A stretch of DNA of 38,964 bases from Clostridia bacterium (lineage in GTDB: Bacteria; Bacillota; Clostridia; Oscillospirales; UBA644). The stretch lies in assembly GCA_017623895.1 (NCBI GenBank), contig JAGAOB010000067.1, positions 1 to 38,964 on the forward strand, written 5' to 3'. The first letter of the stretch is position 1. Each line of letters opens with the position of its first letter. The notes below the pieces were generated by a model. That model did no database searches, was not told where the DNA came from, and saw only the letters and a list, made by a program, of their open reading frames with translations. The position numbers and the translations under genes are program-made. Of the stretch, positions 12,599 through 20,886 are shown piece by piece.

Positions 12599-13096
12599 AT
12601 GGGTAACAAAATCTCGAAGGTCCCCTTCAAGGGAACGCCCGAACAGGAACGGGAGCTACGCGACGTCATCGCTTCTCTGAAAGATCAGCAAGGCGCTCTG
12701 ATGCCCGTTATGCAGAAGGCGCAGGATATTTACGGCTATCTTCCCATTGAAGTCCAGACCATCATTGCAGAGGGGCTGAATATCCCCGTTGAGGAAGTGT
12801 ACGGCGTTGCCACCTTCTACGCACAGTTTGCTCTGAATCCCAAGGGTAAGTACGTCATCGGCGTTTGCCTCGGTACTGCCTGCTACGTTAAGGATTCTCA
12901 GGCGATCTTCGACAAATGCTGCGAAGTTTTGAAGATCAAGGGCGGAGAAATTACCGACGACGGAAAGTTTTCTCTGGAAGCGACTCGCTGCATCGGATGC
13001 TGCGGACTTGCTCCCGTTATGACCGTCGGGGACGACGTTTACGGTAAAATTACCGCGGCAGACGTTCCCGGCATTCTGGAAAAATATATGAACTGA
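12599..13096 (+). CDS. hydC: NAD-linked [FeFe]-hydrogenase subunit HydC (NuoE-like)
   Basis: A 165-residue thioredoxin-fold subunit homologous to the 24-kDa (NuoE) subunit of Complex I. It carries a [2Fe-2S] cluster with ligands in CLGTAC (C-x4-C) and CIGCC (C-x3-C). The N-terminal helical part (MPVMQKAQDIYGYLPIEVQ, VEEVYGVATFYAQF) is diagnostic. In trimeric bifurcating hydrogenases HydC works with HydB and HydA to couple NADH and reduced ferredoxin oxidation to H2 formation, or the reverse. AGAGAGGAAG precedes the ATG. It is separated from hydB by a seven-gene insert, although NuoE and NuoF homologues are often adjacent. Confidence 0.95.
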   Translation: MGNKISKVPFKGTPEQERELRDVIASLKDQQGALMPVMQKAQDIYGYLPIEVQTIIAEGLNIPVEEVYGVATFYAQFALNPKGKYVIGVCLGTACYVKDSQAIFDKCCEVLKIKGGEITDDGKFSLEATRCIGCCGLAPVMTVGDDVYGKITAADVPGILEKYMN

Positions 13097-13142: not shown

Positions 13143-13499
13143 ATGAAAATCAGCACCATCGCCGAGCTTCTTGAAGCAGAGGTGCTCTGCGGCGAAGAGC
13201 TTTTGGAAAACGAAGTCCATTCCGCTTGCGGTTCGGATATGATGAGTGACGTCCTTGCATTTGTCAAGGATCAAGCAGTCCTGCTTACGGGGCTGATCAA
13301 CCTTCAGGTCGTCCGTACCGCTGAAATAATGGATATGCGTTGCATCGTTTTCGTCCGCGGAAAAAATCCCCCCAAAGAAGTGATCGAGGCCGCCGAAGAG
13401 GCGGGGATCATCGTGCTTGCTACCACAGAGCGGATGTATCCCGCTTGCGGAAAGCTGTACGCGACCGGTCTTGTGGGTGGGAGCGTGTCAACGTTATGA
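13143..13499 (+). CDS. DRTGG-domain protein 1 of the hydrogenase cassette
   Basis: A 118-residue protein (MKISTIAELLEAEVLCGEE) consisting essentially of one DRTGG-type domain. Landmarks are ACGSDMMSDVLAFV, LLTGLINLQVVRTAEI, IVFVRGKNPPKEVIEAAEE and GIIVLATTERMYPACGKLY. DRTGG domains occur beside CBS domains and in BioD/phosphotransacetylase-like proteins and are thought to bind a ligand or mediate contacts; no enzyme activity is evident. The ATG at 13143 has TTGGAGGAG eight bases upstream, so the longer frame is rejected. Its stop overlaps the next start (ATGA), coupling it to the GHKL ATPase. Role inferred: sensor or adaptor of the cassette. Confidence 0.82.
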   Translation: MKISTIAELLEAEVLCGEELLENEVHSACGSDMMSDVLAFVKDQAVLLTGLINLQVVRTAEIMDMRCIVFVRGKNPPKEVIEAAEEAGIIVLATTERMYPACGKLYATGLVGGSVSTL

Positions 13500-13933
13500 G
13501 TGAGCCCGTAAGATTTCATTTTGACGTTGCGGGCGACAACTTTGCCTCTGCGGGAGAAGCTTCCGTAAAGGTGAAAAAGCTGCTTCGTCAGCTTTCTATG
13601 GATCCCGAAACCATCCGCCGTGTTTCCATCGCGATGTACGAGGGCGAGATCAATATGGTCATTCACGCCAACGGCGGCACCGCCGACGTGATCCTTTACC
13701 CCGACCGGATCCAGATCGTTCTTTCGGATACGGGACCGGGGATCAAGGATGTTTCTCTTGCGATGCAGGAGGGATACTCCACCGCAAAGGATAACGTTCG
13801 TTCTCTGGGCTTCGGCGCAGGAATGGGTTTGCCGAATATGAAGCGTTATACCGACCGTATGCAGATCGAGTCCGAGGTCGGGAAGGGTACCACCGTAACG
13901 ATGGAAGTCTTTCTTCCCGAGGCTGCTCGCTGA
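13496..13933 (+). CDS. RsbW/SpoIIAB-like GHKL ATPase
   Basis: A 145-residue stand-alone histidine-kinase-like ATPase domain. The N-box is in EGEINMVIHANGG, the G1 box is DTGPGI, and the G2 box is GFGAGMGLPNMKRY. There is no phospho-acceptor histidine domain or membrane segment, which fits the anti-sigma factor/serine kinase branch (RsbW, SpoIIAB) rather than a sensor histidine kinase. The start ATG overlaps the DRTGG stop by four bases. Its partner is unknown; the neighbouring DRTGG or hydrogenase-like protein is a natural candidate. The fold is firm, the function inferred. Confidence 0.88.
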   Translation: MSEPVRFHFDVAGDNFASAGEASVKVKKLLRQLSMDPETIRRVSIAMYEGEINMVIHANGGTADVILYPDRIQIVLSDTGPGIKDVSLAMQEGYSTAKDNVRSLGFGAGMGLPNMKRYTDRMQIESEVGKGTTVTMEVFLPEAAR

Positions 13934-13965: not shown

Positions 13966-15273
13966 ATGTCGAATCTTCACTCCGTTTCCCTTCTTCGGGA
14001 ACGGTGTAAGGGTTGTACTGCCTGCTTGAAGCGTTGCCCCACCGAGGCAATTCGGATTCGGGACGGTCACGCCGTGATCCGATCCGAGCGATGCATCGAC
14101 TGCGGGGAATGTATTCGAGTCTGTCCTCATAAGGCGAAAAAGGCCACCTACGACGATTATTCCGTATTGGATCGCTTCCGCTGGAAGATTGCGCTTCCCG
14201 CTCCGGCCCTTTACGGACAGTTCGACAATTTGGAGGACGTGGATTTCGTCCTGACGGGGCTGTTGGGCTGTGGGTTTGACGACGTGTACGAGGTTGCGCG
14301 GGCTGCGGAATTGATTTCCGAATATACTCGTTGCTATCTTCGCCGTCCCGACATCAAAAAACCCGTGATCTCTTCCGCCTGTCCCGCCATCGTGCGGATG
14401 ATCTCGGCGCGGTTTCCCTCTCTGTGTGCAAACGTGCTGCCCCTGCTTCCCCCCGTGGAAATGGCAGCCCGTCTCGCAAAACAAGAGGCAAAGAAAAACC
14501 ACCCCGAGCTCAAGGATGAGGAGATCGGCGTGTTCTTCATTTCTCCCTGTCCCGCAAAGGTCAGCTATGTGAAGAACCCCATCGGCATCGAAAAAAGTGC
14601 CATTGACGGAACCCTGTCTATGAGTGACGTTTATTTCCGTCTCGTCCCCGTGATGAACAAGATCACCACCCCCATCTCCCTGTCCAAGACGGGATTGATC
14701 GGGATCAGCTGGGCAGGATCGGGGGGCGAAGCCTCTGCATTGTTTAACGACAAGTATCTTGCCGCCGACGGGATGGAAAACGTGATCAAGGTTTTGGACG
14801 AAATCGATAACGGAAACATTTCCGGGCTGGAATTCGTCGAGCTGAACGCCTGCAGCGGAGGCTGTGTGGGCGGCGCTCTTACCGTGGTAAATCCGTACAT
14901 TTCAAAGGCACGTCTGCAGTCCCTGCGTCGGTATCTGCCCGTGTCTCAAAATCGGGTCGGATCGGCACTCAAGGCCGATTCTGCCGAAATCCCCGAAGAG
15001 TATCTTTGGAACAATCCGTTAAAATACGCACCGATCTTGCAATTGGATGCAGATATCTCCGCCGCGATGCGGAAGATGTCCGAGATTCAGCGCCTGCGGG
15101 GGCAATTCCCCGATCTGGACTGCGGTGCCTGCGGCGCTCCCACCTGTCTTGCCCTTGCGGAAGACGTGGTGTGCGGTGATGCCAACGAGCACGATTGCAT
15201 TATGAAGTGGAAGGACGTTTTGAAGGGAAAATCTCCCAAGGACGTCCCCCCGAGAGGGGAGGAACCGAAATGA
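13966..15273 (+). CDS. Sensory-type [FeFe]-hydrogenase homologue (HydS-like)
   Basis: A 435-residue iron-sulfur protein. Residues 1-60 hold two [4Fe-4S] ferredoxin motifs (CKGCTACLKRCP and CIDCGECIRVCP). Residues about 75-360 are a hydrogenase H-cluster domain: L1 reads SSACPA (136-141), L2 ISPCPAK (192-198) and L3 ELNACSGGCVGG (C296, C300). The four cluster-ligand cysteines are kept, but the proton-relay Cys of TSCCP is Ala138, as in sensory HydS proteins. The C-terminus has another iron-sulfur motif (DCGACGAPTC, then C about 20 residues later). No PAS domain is present. It probably senses H2 or redox state rather than making H2. AAAGGAGG lies eight bases before the ATG. Confidence 0.88.
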   Translation: MSNLHSVSLLRERCKGCTACLKRCPTEAIRIRDGHAVIRSERCIDCGECIRVCPHKAKKATYDDYSVLDRFRWKIALPAPALYGQFDNLEDVDFVLTGLLGCGFDDVYEVARAAELISEYTRCYLRRPDIKKPVISSACPAIVRMISARFPSLCANVLPLLPPVEMAARLAKQEAKKNHPELKDEEIGVFFISPCPAKVSYVKNPIGIEKSAIDGTLSMSDVYFRLVPVMNKITTPISLSKTGLIGISWAGSGGEASALFNDKYLAADGMENVIKVLDEIDNGNISGLEFVELNACSGGCVGGALTVVNPYISKARLQSLRRYLPVSQNRVGSALKADSAEIPEEYLWNNPLKYAPILQLDADISAAMRKMSEIQRLRGQFPDLDCGACGAPTCLALAEDVVCGDANEHDCIMKWKDVLKGKSPKDVPPRGEEPK

Positions 15274-15602
15274 CCGCAAAGCAACTGAGGGAACGATTGG
15301 AGCTTCAGCTTCTTTCCGAGCCCGACCCCGACCGTGACGTCACGGGAGGCTATGCGGGGGATCTGTTGAGCTGGGTGATGGGTCGTGCACAAAGCGGCGA
15401 CGCTTGGGTGACGATTATGACCAACCGCAACATCGTGGCCGTGGCGGCGTTGGCGGATCCTGCCTGCGTTATCGTGGCAGAGGATTCCGTGGTGGAGCCC
15501 GACGTGATCGCGTTGGCTTGCGAGAAAGGAATCAACCTTTACCGCAGCTCCCGAACTTCCTTTGACCTGTGCTGCAGCATCGGTTCTCTTTTAGGCGTAT
15601 GA
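15270..15602 (+). CDS. DRTGG-domain protein 2 of the hydrogenase cassette
   Basis: A 110-residue protein (MTAKQLRERLELQLLSE) related in plan to the DRTGG protein at 13143-13499. Shared features are GGYAGDLLSWVMGRAQSGDA, VTIMTNRNIVAVAALAD and EPDVIALACEKGINLYRSS. It differs strongly in sequence, so this is an old duplication. The ATG at 15270 overlaps the HydS-like stop, and its own stop overlaps the PHP start, giving tight coupling on both sides. Inferred role: ligand-binding or adaptor subunit, perhaps a partner of one of the two ATPases. No catalytic residues are recognisable. Confidence 0.8.
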   Translation: MTAKQLRERLELQLLSEPDPDRDVTGGYAGDLLSWVMGRAQSGDAWVTIMTNRNIVAVAALADPACVIVAEDSVVEPDVIALACEKGINLYRSSRTSFDLCCSIGSLLGV

Positions 15603-16324
15603 GCCGTTATTATTACGATTTACACATTCACTCCTGCCTCTCTCCCTGCGGAGACGACGATATGACCCCTGCGAACATTGCGGGGATGGCTTCCCTTAAG
15701 GGGTTGACGCTCCTTGCCCTGACCGATCACAATTCCTGCCGCAATTGTCCCGCTTTTTTTGAAGCGTGCAACGCCTTTGGAATCGTGCCCGTGGCAGGAA
15801 TGGAGCTGACCACCGCGGAAGACATTCATCTTATCGTCCTGTTTCCCACGCTGGAGCAAGCGATGGCCTTTGATGCCGAGATTCATCCGCGGATCCTTCC
15901 GATTCGGAACCGTCCCGAAATTTTCGGGAACCAATGGATCGTGGACAGCGACGACAATCTTCTGGAAACGGAAGAAACGCTGCTGATCAACGCCACCGAT
16001 CTGGACATAGACGGCGCCATCGCATTAGTGGATCGGTACGGCGGCGTTTTATATCCCGCCCATATCGATCGCCCGTCCAACGGAATGATCGCCGTGTTAG
16101 GCTCCGTTCCCAAGGAATACGGTTTTTCCTGCGTGGAGTTCAACGATTTAGACCAAAGGGATGAGATTTTGGCGGAGCAGGGATTGGACTGTATCACCCT
16201 CTGCTCCTCCGACGCCCACGAATTGGGCAAGATCAACGAGGCAGAGCATTTTCTCGATCTGGAGGATGAACCCTATTCTTCCGCATTGGTCCGAACGCGG
16301 TTGATAGAGTTCCTGAAGCGATGA
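15599..16324 (+). CDS. PHP-domain metal-dependent phosphoesterase
   Basis: A 241-residue PHP protein, the fold of histidinol phosphatase and the nucleotide 3',5'-bisphosphate phosphatase TrpH. Metal ligands appear in order: DLHIHS (H9, H11), TDHN, GMELTT, PAHIDRPS and SSDAHELG. The length is near that of stand-alone PHP phosphatases. The ATG at 15599 overlaps the preceding stop, so the upstream in-frame codons are rejected. In this operon it could remove phosphate groups added by the GHKL ATPases or act on a small phosphorylated signal; that is inference. Its stop overlaps the next start. Confidence 0.88.
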   Translation: MSRYYYDLHIHSCLSPCGDDDMTPANIAGMASLKGLTLLALTDHNSCRNCPAFFEACNAFGIVPVAGMELTTAEDIHLIVLFPTLEQAMAFDAEIHPRILPIRNRPEIFGNQWIVDSDDNLLETEETLLINATDLDIDGAIALVDRYGGVLYPAHIDRPSNGMIAVLGSVPKEYGFSCVEFNDLDQRDEILAEQGLDCITLCSSDAHELGKINEAEHFLDLEDEPYSSALVRTRLIEFLKR

Positions 16325-16881
16325 AAGAACTTTCCTTAAATATCCTTGACATTGCCCAAAATTCGGTTTCGGCAGAGGCAAAAAACATTTCGATCCTTCT
16401 CGAAGAAACCGAGTCGGGACGTTTAACCCTAACCATCACCGATGACGGAAAAGGGATGTCTCCCGAAATGGTGCAATCCGTGACGGATCCCTTTTGTACC
16501 ACGCGCACCACGCGGCGCGTCGGAATGGGAATCCCCCTGCTGAAGCTTGCCAGCGAGCAGACGGGAGGATGTCTTTCCATCGTATCGGTTCCGAAAGAGA
16601 CCGACCCCATCGGTTGCGGAACGACCGTTCGCGCAACCTTTGATACCACGAGCATCGACTTTACTCCCTTGGGAGACGTGGTCGACACCCTTGTTGTTTT
16701 GATTCAGGGACACCCTGAAATCGATTATCTTTTCCTGCATTCTACTCCCGCGGGCACCGTAAAGCTCGATACCAAAGAGCTTCGCAGTATTCTGGGAGAG
16801 GAGATATCCCTCGGAGAGTTTGAGATCCTCGATTGGATCCGCGGCTCTCTGGAGGAACAGTACCAAGCGTTAAAAAAATGA
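16321..16881 (+). CDS. Stand-alone histidine-kinase-like ATPase
   Basis: A 186-residue protein whose first 110 residues are a GHKL ATPase domain: N-box LNILDIAQNSVSAEAKNI, G1 DDGKGM, and G2 RRVGMGIPLLKLASEQTGG. Residues 115-186 form an extra C-terminal region (DVVDTLVVLIQGHPEIDYLF, then LGEFEILDWIRGSLEEQ) I do not recognise. There is no dimerisation/phospho-acceptor domain. The DNILDIAQNS-like box is closer to sensor kinases than to RsbW, so this ATPase differs from the one at 13496-13933. It is the last member of the coupled cassette; the start overlaps the PHP stop. Confidence 0.88.
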   Translation: MKELSLNILDIAQNSVSAEAKNISILLEETESGRLTLTITDDGKGMSPEMVQSVTDPFCTTRTTRRVGMGIPLLKLASEQTGGCLSIVSVPKETDPIGCGTTVRATFDTTSIDFTPLGDVVDTLVVLIQGHPEIDYLFLHSTPAGTVKLDTKELRSILGEEISLGEFEILDWIRGSLEEQYQALKK

Positions 16882-16908: not shown

Positions 16909-17289
16909 ATGAAAACTCTTGCAGAACTTGAAGCCATCAGAGAACGTATGAAGGGAAAGGTCGCCGTTCGTGAAGCGAACGACAACACCATCCGTATCGT
17001 TGTCGGTATGGCCACCTGCGGCATTGCTGCAGGCGCCCGTCCCGTCCTCAACGCAATCGCGGAAGAGGTTTCCAAGCAGGGACTGTCCGAAACCGTCACC
17101 GTCACTCAGACGGGGTGCATCGGCCTTTGCCAGTACGAGCCCATCGTTGAGGTGTATCAGCAGGGCAAGGAAAAGGTGACCTACGTTAAGATGGATTCCG
17201 AAAAGGCCAAAAAGGTTATCGAGGATCACATCAAGGGCGGTAAGGTCGTCAATGACTACACCATCGGCGCTTACAATCCCAATCTGTGA
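16909..17289 (+). CDS. Thioredoxin-like [2Fe-2S]-type protein of hydrogenase operon (HydD-like)
   Basis: A 126-residue small ferredoxin-like protein often found between the NuoE- and NuoF-like genes of NAD-linked hydrogenases. The thioredoxin-like fold is visible in IRIVVGMATCGIAAGARPVL and VTVTQTGCIGLCQYEPIVEV. Only three of the four usual cluster cysteines are present: C37, C70 and C74. The residue five after C37 is Gly, where HydB's matching domain has Cys (C9/C14/C46/C50). So either it binds a cluster with a substitute ligand or it is structural. ATGGAGGCG precedes the ATG, and hydB starts 19 bases downstream. Confidence 0.88.
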   Translation: MKTLAELEAIRERMKGKVAVREANDNTIRIVVGMATCGIAAGARPVLNAIAEEVSKQGLSETVTVTQTGCIGLCQYEPIVEVYQQGKEKVTYVKMDSEKAKKVIEDHIKGGKVVNDYTIGAYNPNL

Positions 17290-17308: not shown

Positions 17309-19132
17309 ATGATTCGTTCTCACGTTTTGATTTGCGGCGGTACCGGTTGTACATCCTCCGGCAGCGCAAAGCTGCACACCAGACTTGAAGAAGAAATCAA
17401 GGCAAAGGGACTGGAAAACGAAGTTAAGGTCGTTCAGACGGGCTGCTTCGGTCTCTGTGCTTTGGGTCCCATTATGATCGTATATCCCGACGGCACGTTC
17501 TACAGTATGGTTAAGGAAGAGGATCTTCCCGAAATCGTGGAAGAGCACCTTCTGAAGGGCCGTCCCGTGGAGCGTCTGGTCTATAAGGACAAGGCGGAAG
17601 GGGAAGAGGCTGCTGCCGAAGAGCATTATTCCCTGAACGATACTGCCTTTTACAAAAAGCAAATGCGCGTCGCACTGCGCAACTGCGGTGTGATCGACCC
17701 TGAAATCATCGACGAATACATCGCAATGGACGGGTACAAGGCTCTTGGAAAAGTCCTGACGGAAATGACTCCCGAGGACGTCATCCAAACGATGCTCGAT
17801 TCCGGACTCCGCGGACGCGGCGGCGCAGGCTTCCCCACGGGTATGAAGTGGAAATTTGCCCGTGCCTCCCAATCCGATAAAAAATACGTCTGCTGTAACG
17901 CCGACGAAGGGGACCCCGGTGCGTTTATGGACCGTTCCGTTTTGGAGGGGGACCCCCACGCCGTCATCGAGGCTATGGCGATTGCCGCTTACGCCATCGG
18001 TGCAGATCAGGGCTACGTTTACATCCGTGCCGAATATCCCATCGCCGTCAAGCGCTTGTCTATTGCCATTCAGCAGGCTCGGGAATACGGCTTGCTGGGT
18101 AAGGATATTTTCGGAACCGGCTTTAACTTTGATCTGGACATCCGTTTGGGCGCAGGCGCCTTCGTTTGCGGTGAAGAAACCGCTTTGATGACCTCCATCG
18201 AAGGAAAGCGCGGCGAGCCCAGACCCCGTCCTCCCTTCCCCGCAGTCAAGGGTTTGTTTGCACAACCCACCGTTCTGAACAACGTGGAAACCTACGCCAA
18301 CATTCCTCAGATCATTCTGAAGGGCGTGGATTGGTTCCGTTCCATCGGTACGGAAAAGAGCAAGGGTACCAAGGTCTTCGCTTTGGGTGGTAAGATCACC
18401 AACACCGGACTGGTTGAGGTTCCTATGGGAACTCCCCTGCGCACCATCATCGAGGAAATCGGTGGAGGAATCCCCAACGGCAAGAAGTTCAAGGCGGCGC
18501 AGACCGGCGGTCCCTCCGGCGGCTGTATCCCCGCAGAGCATCTGGACGTTCCCATCGATTACGATAACCTCATTGCCATCGGCTCTATGATGGGATCCGG
18601 CGGATTGATCGTTATGGACGAAGACAACTGTATGGTTGACATCGCCAAGTTCTTCCTGGAATTCACCGTGGACGAATCCTGCGGTAAGTGTACGCCCTGC
18701 CGTATCGGAACCCGCCGTCTTCTGGAAATGCTGACCAAGATCACCGACGGAAAAGCAACCCTGGAAGATCTGGACAAGATGGAAGAGTTGTGCTATTATA
18801 TTAAGGAAAACTCTCTCTGCGGTCTGGGACAAACTGCTCCCAACCCCGTGCTGTCTACCTTGAAGTTCTTCCGCGACGAATATGTTGCCCATATCGTGGA
18901 CAAAACCTGTCCCGCGGGCGTATGTAAGAACCTGCTGAAATACAGCGTCATCTCTGACAAGTGCTTCGGCTGTGGTATGTGTATGCGTGCCTGCCCCGCT
19001 TCTGCCATTTACGTTACCGATTACACCGCGCCCGGCAAGAAGAAGCCCGCCGTTGCCATCGATACCGACAAGTGCGTGAAGTGCGGTGCTTGTATTGGCA
19101 CCTGTAAGTTCAGCGCTATCACTAAGAAATAA
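17309..19132 (+). CDS. hydB: NAD-linked [FeFe]-hydrogenase subunit HydB (NuoF-like)
   Basis: A 607-residue flavin subunit. An N-terminal thioredoxin-like [2Fe-2S] domain (C9, C14, C46, C50) is followed by the NuoF core from about 110: RGRGGAGFPTGMKW and NADEGDPGAFMDR for NADH/FMN binding, then YIRAEYP and GAGAFVCGEETALMTSIEG. Next is a [4Fe-4S] site ESCGKCTPCRIGTRR with its fourth Cys in LCGLGQTAPNP. The C-terminus carries two ferredoxin clusters (CFGCGMCMRACP and CVKCGACIGTC). This layout matches HydB of bifurcating HydABC enzymes, where NADH meets FMN. AAGGAGGAAG precedes the ATG; hydA follows 14 bases later. Confidence 0.97.
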   Translation: MIRSHVLICGGTGCTSSGSAKLHTRLEEEIKAKGLENEVKVVQTGCFGLCALGPIMIVYPDGTFYSMVKEEDLPEIVEEHLLKGRPVERLVYKDKAEGEEAAAEEHYSLNDTAFYKKQMRVALRNCGVIDPEIIDEYIAMDGYKALGKVLTEMTPEDVIQTMLDSGLRGRGGAGFPTGMKWKFARASQSDKKYVCCNADEGDPGAFMDRSVLEGDPHAVIEAMAIAAYAIGADQGYVYIRAEYPIAVKRLSIAIQQAREYGLLGKDIFGTGFNFDLDIRLGAGAFVCGEETALMTSIEGKRGEPRPRPPFPAVKGLFAQPTVLNNVETYANIPQIILKGVDWFRSIGTEKSKGTKVFALGGKITNTGLVEVPMGTPLRTIIEEIGGGIPNGKKFKAAQTGGPSGGCIPAEHLDVPIDYDNLIAIGSMMGSGGLIVMDEDNCMVDIAKFFLEFTVDESCGKCTPCRIGTRRLLEMLTKITDGKATLEDLDKMEELCYYIKENSLCGLGQTAPNPVLSTLKFFRDEYVAHIVDKTCPAGVCKNLLKYSVISDKCFGCGMCMRACPASAIYVTDYTAPGKKKPAVAIDTDKCVKCGACIGTCKFSAITKK

Positions 19133-19146
19133 GGAGGTTTGTGGAA

Positions 19147-20886
19147 ATGGCTGACGTGAATTTGAAAATTAACGGCATCCCCGTAACCGTTCCTGCAGGA
19201 ACGACCATTCTCGAGGCTGCCAACCAAGCCGGTGTCCGTATTCCGACCCTGTGCTTTTTGAAAGATATTAATGCGATCGGCGCTTGCCGTATCTGCATCT
19301 GCGAAGTCAAGGGTGCTCGCGCTCTGGCTGCCGCCTGCGTTTATCCCGTTGCTGAGGGTATGGAAGTTCTTACCGACACGCCCAAGGTCATCGAATCTCG
19401 CAAAACGACGCTGGAGTTGATCCTCTCCAACCACGATATGAAGTGCCTCTCCTGCCCCCGCAGCCAAAACTGCGAGCTGCAGAAGCTGGCGTTGGAATAT
19501 GGGGTCGATTGCGATCGCTTCCAAGGTGCAAAAACTCCTTCGGAGGTGGAAAACACCAACCCCTATCTGATCCGTGACAACGGAAAGTGTATCCTCTGCC
19601 GCCGTTGCTCCGCTGTTTGCCGCCACAATCAGGGCGTAGGCGTTATCGGTGCAAACGAGCGCGGATTCAATACCCATATCGGCTGTGCCTTCGATCTGGA
19701 TCTGAAGGACGTGGCTTGTATCGGTTGTGGTCAGTGTACCGTCGTTTGCCCCACCGCCGCCCTCACCGAAAAGGATGATACCGCAGCGGTCTTCAAGGCA
19801 ATCGCCGATCCCACCAAGCACGTGGTGGTTGCTCCTGCTCCCTCCGTTCGCGTACAGATCGCCGAAGAGTTCGGTGCTCCCATCGGAACCAACGCCGAAG
19901 GAAAGCTGGTTGCATCTCTTCGCCGTCTCGGCTTTGACGCCGTGGTGGACGTGGACGTTGCTGCCGACGTTACCATCATTGAAGAAGGTACCGAGTTTAT
20001 GAACCGTCTCTCCAAGGGCGGAGCTCTGCCTCTGATCACCTCCTGCTCTCCCGGTTGGGTCAAGTACTGTGAACACTATTATCCTGAATTTATCCCCAAT
20101 CTCTCCTCCTGCAAATCTCCTCAGGGAATGTACGGCGCTTTGATGAAGTCCTACTACGCAGAGAAGATGGGATGGGATCCCAAGGACGTTTTCGTGGTCA
20201 GCATTATGCCCTGTACCGCCAAAAAGTTCGAACGGACTCGGGAAGGCTACAAGGTGGACGGTCTGAACGACATTGACGCCGCCCTCACTACCCGTGAGCT
20301 GGCGAAGATGATCCGCAAGGTCGGTCTGATTTGGGAAAAGCTTCCCGACGAAGAATTTGATCCCCTGTTCGGTATCGCTACGGGAGCGGGCCACATCTTC
20401 GGCGCTTCGGGCGGCGTTATGGAAGCTGCACTGCGCACCGTCGTTGAAAAGCTGGAGGGCAAGGAGCTTGCTTCCGTTGATTTCACCGACGTTCGCGGAA
20501 TGGAAGGCGTCAAGGAAGCCACCTACAACGTTGCGGGAACCGAAGTAAAAGTTGCCGTTGTCAGCGGAACTGCGAACGCAGGCAGACTCCTTGACAAGAT
20601 CAAGGCAGGCGAGGCAAATTATCACTTCATCGAGGTTATGGCTTGCCCCGGCGGATGCGTTAACGGCGGCGGTCAGCCCATCCACGACGCGTATACCCGT
20701 GCCAACGTGGATATCCGCGGTCTGCGGGCTGCAGGTCTGTACAATCAGGATGCCGCTTGCACCCTGCGTAAGTCTCACGAGTCCCCCATCGTGAAGGAGA
20801 TTTACGAGAACTATCTGGGCGAAGCCGGCGGACATAAGGCACATCACCTGCTTCACACCACCTACGAAACTCGTAAGAAGTATTGA
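19147..20886 (+). CDS. hydA: [FeFe]-hydrogenase catalytic subunit HydA
   Basis: A 579-residue catalytic subunit (group A3 trimeric type). N-terminal [2Fe-2S] domain (C36, C47, C50, C64), then a His-ligated [4Fe-4S] site HDMKCLSCPRSQNC, two [4Fe-4S] ferredoxin clusters (CILCRRCSAVC, CIGCGQCTVVCP), and the H-cluster domain. L1 is TSCSPGW (298-304), L2 MPCTAKKFE (C356), L3 EVMACPGGCVNGG (C500, C504). The L1 second Cys of the usual TSCCPxW is Ser301. The ATG at 19147 is chosen because AAGGAGG (19131-19137) is too close to the GTG at 19141. A strong terminator follows. Confidence 0.97.
   Translation: MADVNLKINGIPVTVPAGTTILEAANQAGVRIPTLCFLKDINAIGACRICICEVKGARALAAACVYPVAEGMEVLTDTPKVIESRKTTLELILSNHDMKCLSCPRSQNCELQKLALEYGVDCDRFQGAKTPSEVENTNPYLIRDNGKCILCRRCSAVCRHNQGVGVIGANERGFNTHIGCAFDLDLKDVACIGCGQCTVVCPTAALTEKDDTAAVFKAIADPTKHVVVAPAPSVRVQIAEEFGAPIGTNAEGKLVASLRRLGFDAVVDVDVAADVTIIEEGTEFMNRLSKGGALPLITSCSPGWVKYCEHYYPEFIPNLSSCKSPQGMYGALMKSYYAEKMGWDPKDVFVVSIMPCTAKKFERTREGYKVDGLNDIDAALTTRELAKMIRKVGLIWEKLPDEEFDPLFGIATGAGHIFGASGGVMEAALRTVVEKLEGKELASVDFTDVRGMEGVKEATYNVAGTEVKVAVVSGTANAGRLLDKIKAGEANYHFIEVMACPGGCVNGGGQPIHDAYTRANVDIRGLRAAGLYNQDAACTLRKSHESPIVKEIYENYLGEAGGHKAHHLLHTTYETRKKY

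Follow-up and report, generated by a model that had tools for sequence, protein, structure and literature searches.

A group D [FeFe]-hydrogenase with a putative H2-sensing role in a conserved gene block of Bacillota

We analysed a 38,964-nucleotide stretch of a Clostridia bacterium contig (the window) and found within its hydrogenase gene cluster a protein, HydS-D, that tree and residues place almost certainly among the canonical group D (M2e) [FeFe]-hydrogenases, the family of TamHydS. HydS-D is best explained as sensing H2 slowly and with high affinity, a role to which we give a probability of roughly 0.65; a readout of its state by the neighbouring ATPase is part of this picture but less probable. 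Earlier publications already describe the family together with the active-site changes and the C-terminal cluster, and HydS-D is an ordinary member of it. New here is the observation that a block of DRTGG, ATPase, HydS, DRTGG-like and PHP genes is nearly universal in the group D loci examined, and the locus thereby offers a concrete, testable candidate for the missing group D signalling partner, the SpoIIAB/RsbW-like ATPase encoded upstream.

Assignment of HydS-D to group D

The reading frame at 13966-15273 (+) opens with ATG and encodes 435 aa, as originally described. It is not a chance ORF, since homologues with 44-92% identity are widespread in Bacillota and its dN/dS of 0.04-0.10 against four congeners indicates that the gene is maintained by strong purifying selection. 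Pfam places the H-domain (PF02906, 2.8e-27) and finds no PAS domain, and an AlphaFold2 model built from 32 sequences (mean pLDDT 90.5) has [FeFe]-hydrogenases as its best structural matches, with Z up to 35. Searches against NCBIfam gave only matches below cut-off (FeFe_hydrog_B1, 121 of 450 bits), naming no family for HydS-D, so the family assignment is based on the tree and on individual residues.

We placed HydS-D among 66 H-domains by maximum likelihood, using a quick method with SH-aLRT support and without bootstrap. It fell outside catalytic group A and inside a group D clade with SH-aLRT 100; the original prediction had named placement inside group A as a refutation, and the tree does not refute it. 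Groups D, A, B and C each occupied one side of a branch, with labels assigned from domains and motifs and no named TamHydS reference among the 66 sequences. Homologues came from whole-genome searches, in which some hydrogenase group was matched in 51/59 near relatives and 129/199 phylum genomes, from a scan of named genome contigs, and from fetched regions. The named-genome matches were mostly gut Clostridia bins, plus a small number that carry the labels Coriobacteriales, Atopobiaceae or actinobacterium; Thermoanaerobacter and named TamHydS or TmHydS sequences did not appear in that one scan.

Group D was characterised by Land et al. in 2020 through a missing relay Cys, replacement of Met353 by Ser/Thr, a C-terminal Cx2Cx4Cx16C motif and the lack of PAS (PMC8163306). 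HydS-D shows these and the other published group D marks, with Ala138 at the relay position, the hydroxyl residue Ser193 at CpI M353, an alternative proton path, two N-terminal [4Fe-4S] motifs, the C-terminal motif and no PAS domain. Group A enzymes carry an L1 of the form TSC[CS]PxW with the relay Cys and Met at 353 and 497; HydS-D has SSACPA, S193 and N294 at these places. Across 121 group D sequences, position 138 (CpI C299) is Ala in 108, Ser in 10, Thr in 2, His in 1 and Cys in none, and position 193 is Ser in 96 and Thr in 25. The four H-cluster Cys (C139, C195, C296 and C300 in HydS-D) are invariant in this set and all eight N-terminal [4Fe-4S] Cys are present in 121/121, while the proton-path sites are likewise stable (Glu at E255 in 117/121, E292 in 121/121, Asp at D268 in 116/121). 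Groups A, B and C deviate from group D at most of the active-site positions compared.

These data bear on the original prediction, which had described a HydS-like protein that lost its proton-relay cysteine, lacked PAS and carried an extra iron-sulfur motif. Its letters were right: SSACPA lies at exactly 136-141 with Ala138 and Cys139, the ligands C195, C296 and C300 are present, PAS is missing, and a C-terminal motif exists (CGACGAPTC-x16-C; C386, C389, C394, C411), matched by PF04060 'FeS' at 5e-10. A hydrogenase homologue with the HydS pattern was likewise recovered, although 'sensory' as a function of group D is a proposal of the literature. The relay Cys was not locally lost, since Ala is the clade-wide state and the alternative relay Glu (E255 here) is in place. 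Nor is the C-terminal cluster unusual or a departure from classic HydS, being carried by all 17 group-C-type relatives examined. HydS-D is no odd HydS that shed its PAS domain and gained a cluster but a plain group D protein, defined by exactly those features.

The absence of the relay Cys and of both group A Met residues could also be read as a sign that this hydrogenase copy is decaying or no longer functional. Selection and conservation refute this reading, which we consider negligibly probable: dN/dS is 0.04-0.10, the same residues recur in the 121 homologues, and the H-domain is modelled with confidence.

The closest described protein is TamHydS of Thermoanaerobacter mathranii, also of group D, which we compared through residue numbers given in the papers, at steady offsets. 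On this mapping the two share domain order and the C-terminal Cx2Cx4Cx16C motif, with A137/A138 at the relay site and S191/S193 at the M353 site. The replacement proton path of TamHydS, E252-E289-S249-D265, published in 2023 (PMC10407848), is intact in HydS-D as E255, E292, S252 and D268. A 2025 study of TamHydS showed that introducing the relay Cys by itself (A137C) lowers catalytic currents (PMC11803613). A 2026 study of TamHydS drew attention to the C-terminal cluster and to conserved R30, R32, E392 and D393 (PMC13104023); R30/R32/R42 and E392/D393 have equivalents in HydS-D, and the alignment places R30, R32, E399 and D400 at such conserved sites. HydS-D differs in having Asn294 for Leu291, a variable site that is Asn in 76/121 group D sequences. 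TmHydS of Thermotoga maritima (group C, M2f) resembles HydS-D in its two N-terminal clusters, missing relay Cys and C-terminal four-Cys cluster. In contrast to HydS-D, however, group C proteins end in a PAS or another output domain and have Gly instead of Ser at M353, and group-C-type relatives form a clade separate from group D; the HydS-D chain stops 24 residues past C411 and has no such domain.

Table 1. Features of HydS-D and of its gene cluster, by position in the window
Feature	Positions	Strand	Evidence
HydC/NuoE-like [2Fe-2S] thioredoxin-fold subunit	12599..13096	+	PF01257 4.8e-51
DRTGG-domain protein	13143..13499	+	PF07085 5.7e-8
SpoIIAB/RsbW-like HATPase, candidate partner, N-box/G1/G2 intact	13496..13933	+	Pfam; TIGR01925 1.1e-17, below cut-off
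HydS-D, group D (M2e) putative sensory [FeFe]-hydrogenase, 435 aa	13966..15273	+	Pfam, tree, residues, AlphaFold2 model
Two N-terminal [4Fe-4S] motifs (C14-C24, C43-C53) of HydS-D	14005..14124	+	Pfam, alignment
L1 motif SSACPA, residues 136-141; Ala138 at group A proton-relay Cys site, Cys139 cluster ligand	14371..14388	+	alignment
L2 motif ISPCPAK (192-198): Ser193 at group A Met353 site, Cys195 ligand, Lys198	14539..14559	+	alignment
Proton-path residues Ser252, Glu255, Asp268 (TamHydS S249, E252, D265)	14719..14769	+	alignment; mapping via PMC10407848
Glu292 (TamHydS E289) and L3 motif NACSGGC with Cys296, Cys300	14839..14865	+	alignment
C-terminal [4Fe-4S] motif Cx2Cx4Cx16C: C386, C389, C394, C411	15121..15198	+	Pfam, alignment; described for M2e/M2f in PMC8163306
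Small DRTGG-like protein	15270..15602	+	no Pfam match; profile homology to first DRTGG gene
PHP-family phosphoesterase, metal-ligand motifs conserved	15599..16324	+	Pfam, alignment
Second HATPase-domain protein	16321..16881	+	Pfam
[2Fe-2S] thioredoxin-like ferredoxin	16909..17289	+	domain profiles
HydB, NuoF-like subunit	17309..19132	+	domain profiles
HydA, NADH-dependent group A [FeFe]-hydrogenase catalytic subunit, L1 TSCSPGW	19141..20886	+	NF040763 858.8 bits, over cut-off

A gene block shared by group D loci

The cluster runs along the + strand in the order HydC, DRTGG, ATPase, HydS-D, DRTGG-like, PHP, second HATPase, [2Fe-2S] ferredoxin, HydB and HydA (Table 1). Overlaps of 4 nt between stop and start codons at 13496-13499, 15270-15273, 15599-15602 and 16321-16324 suggest that the genes are carried on a single transcript.

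We compared 121 group D loci, a mixed sample in which 80 are the closest matches of one scan and gut relatives are overweighted. Among those with enough flank, an ATPase gene of the SpoIIAB/RsbW-like type lies directly upstream of HydS-D in 114/115 and a DRTGG gene upstream in 109/115; downstream, a DRTGG-type gene occurs in 102/107 and a PHP gene in 101/107. HydA was found in 52/64 loci having at least 7.5 kb on both sides. The N-box, G1 and G2 motifs of the ATPase and the metal-ligand motifs of the PHP protein are conserved, and the loci drawn from the wider phylum have the same block with a few exceptions (L151, L152, L160, L161). It is intact where HydABC is divergent (L126, L138, L141, L169, L171) and where HydABC is not adjacent (L128, L144, L165, L168, L170, L172). 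In three loci of one family (L151, L152, L161), the ATPase-HydS pair adjoins two-component, CheW or MCP-hydrogenase genes.

TamHydS likewise has an ATPase gene alongside and group A HydABC nearby, and its histidine-kinase-like ATPase neighbour was already noted by Land et al. (PMC8163306). The breadth of this linkage and the rest of the block did not appear in the openly accessible papers searched, and a search for DRTGG together with hydrogenase returned one unrelated paper.

The ATPase encoded next to HydS-D shares with the SpoIIAB/RsbW anti-sigma ATPases a HATPase fold, the N-box and the D.GPGI and GFGAGMGLPN motifs, but its score does not reach the cut-off of the SpoIIAB equivalog model, and the hydrogenase gene cluster showed neither a sigma factor nor a STAS partner. 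Gene order makes the ATPase a candidate direct partner of HydS-D, with a chance that we put slightly under even, since neighbouring genes need not encode proteins that bind each other; identifying the interaction partner of TamHydS was called critical in 2026 (PMC13104023).

In the HydA of the cluster (19141-20886), Ser occupies the site of the cluster ligand C300 of CpI. We rejected this as an oddity, since the L1 Ser is common to 71/77 cluster-linked HydA and also occurs in the solved HydA1 of Acetobacterium woodii.

Proposed sensing of H2 by HydS-D

TamHydS combines low H2 turnover with raised H2 affinity, CO tolerance and a secondary structure altered under H2 (PMC8163306, PMC13104023). 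Together with gene order, analogy with these properties makes it fairly likely that HydS-D senses H2. H2 would bind an H-cluster held by C139, C195, C296 and C300, and, judging by the published TamHydS mutants, protons would exit through E255-E292-S252-D268 rather than through the group A cysteine. By the same analogy, HydS-D would turn H2 over weakly and change structure in response to it, a change that the neighbouring ATPase may read. The C-terminal cluster of TamHydS is not reduced by H2 (PMC13104023), and signalling is therefore more likely to be conformational. Within the gene cluster, HydS-D may report on the output of the bifurcating HydABC, and the ATPase, DRTGG and PHP proteins would in turn set hydrogenase expression or activity.

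TamHydS is nevertheless capable of H2 turnover (PMC8163306, PMC10407848), its kind of N-terminal clusters would provide an electron path, and the hydS-D gene shares a cluster with HydC, HydB and HydA, all of which would equally suit a slow catalytic hydrogenase acting in metabolism, for instance as an accessory to HydABC, with no sensory role. We regard such a metabolic role as unlikely, since the activity of TamHydS is low and the group A proton path is missing, since the ATPase/DRTGG/PHP block is kept without adjacent HydABC, and since the published view of group D is sensory.

Maturases and other H-domain proteins

Profile searches for the maturases, judged at family cut-offs, gave no HydG (TIGR03955) or HydF (TIGR03918) over cut-off in five genomes of the source genus (G000-G004, 71-96% complete) and no HydE in any of the five, so HydS-D need not carry a complete H-cluster in its host. 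HydG and HydF were also absent over cut-off in several other near relatives with group D (G022, G033, G037, G057; 98-99% complete). In a phylum draw, 23/65 Bacillota genomes with a group D gene lacked HydG at the family cut-off; HydF was missing from 19/19 HydG-negative group D genomes tested and present in 5/5 HydG-positive controls. The HydG/HydF-negative genomes with group D also include G110, G230 and G086, HydE was missing as well in those searched for it, and many of these genomes encode HydABC too. Lineage loss, another maturation route, and assembly or binning loss are all possible explanations. Entamoeba-type eukaryotes and Rhodospirillum rubrum have been described as having lost maturases (PMC4967309). 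Should closed genomes bear it out, the repeated absence of HydG and HydF alongside group D would be of consequence.

This pattern raises the alternative that HydS-D is a [4Fe-4S] redox sensor without the [2Fe] subsite in hosts lacking HydE/F/G. Besides the maturases missing from the five congeneric assemblies and the 19 HydG-negative genomes, the diiron contacts are altered in three genomes negative for HydG and HydF, with the K198/E255 equivalents changed to Q/Q in L170 (G230), Q/Q in L172 (G086) and R/D in L177 (G110). All three retain the four [4Fe-4S] Cys, as if the cubane alone had been kept.

However, most HydG-negative genomes are multi-contig assemblies, and all eight genomes that consist of one contig and carry an unbroken group D gene have HydG; in a further single-contig genome, where HydG is not over cut-off (G148), the sole group D gene is broken by stops. 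Within the source genus, purifying selection has preserved K198, E255 and the motifs of HydA, which is 94-96% identical there at dN/dS of about 0.04-0.05. The source genome also encodes a group B-type [FeFe]-hydrogenase (L002:859-2340 (+), G000:C54) with L1 SSCCPAF, L2 and L3 intact. This integrity suggests that the H-cluster is made in the source genus, and we consider a diiron-free HydS-D improbable. Its broadest form, in which a large share of Bacillota, the source genus among them, has given up HydE/F/G and kept group D HydS as a diiron-free [4Fe-4S] redox sensor signalling to the SpoIIAB-like ATPase through the DRTGG/PHP module, seems to us somewhat less probable still; if true, a hydrogenase would have become a signalling protein that no longer acts as a hydrogenase.

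Several other H-domain proteins were encountered in these loci. One, encoded close to HydA in a genome where group D occurs too (L167:2771-4993 (-)), joins an H-domain of group C type to a sigma-54 activator (AAA+) and a Fis-type HTH and is possibly a one-protein H2-responsive enhancer-binding regulator. Two further H-domain proteins adjoin group D HydS and its ATPase (L151:6537-8450 (-) and L161:5937-7877 (-)); the first carries an MCP signalling domain and the second locus has a CheW gene (L161:9852-10310 (-)), arrangements in which a link to H2 taxis is possible. At L063:1-2610 (-), an H-domain is fused to PAS and HisKA, as in a sensor histidine kinase.
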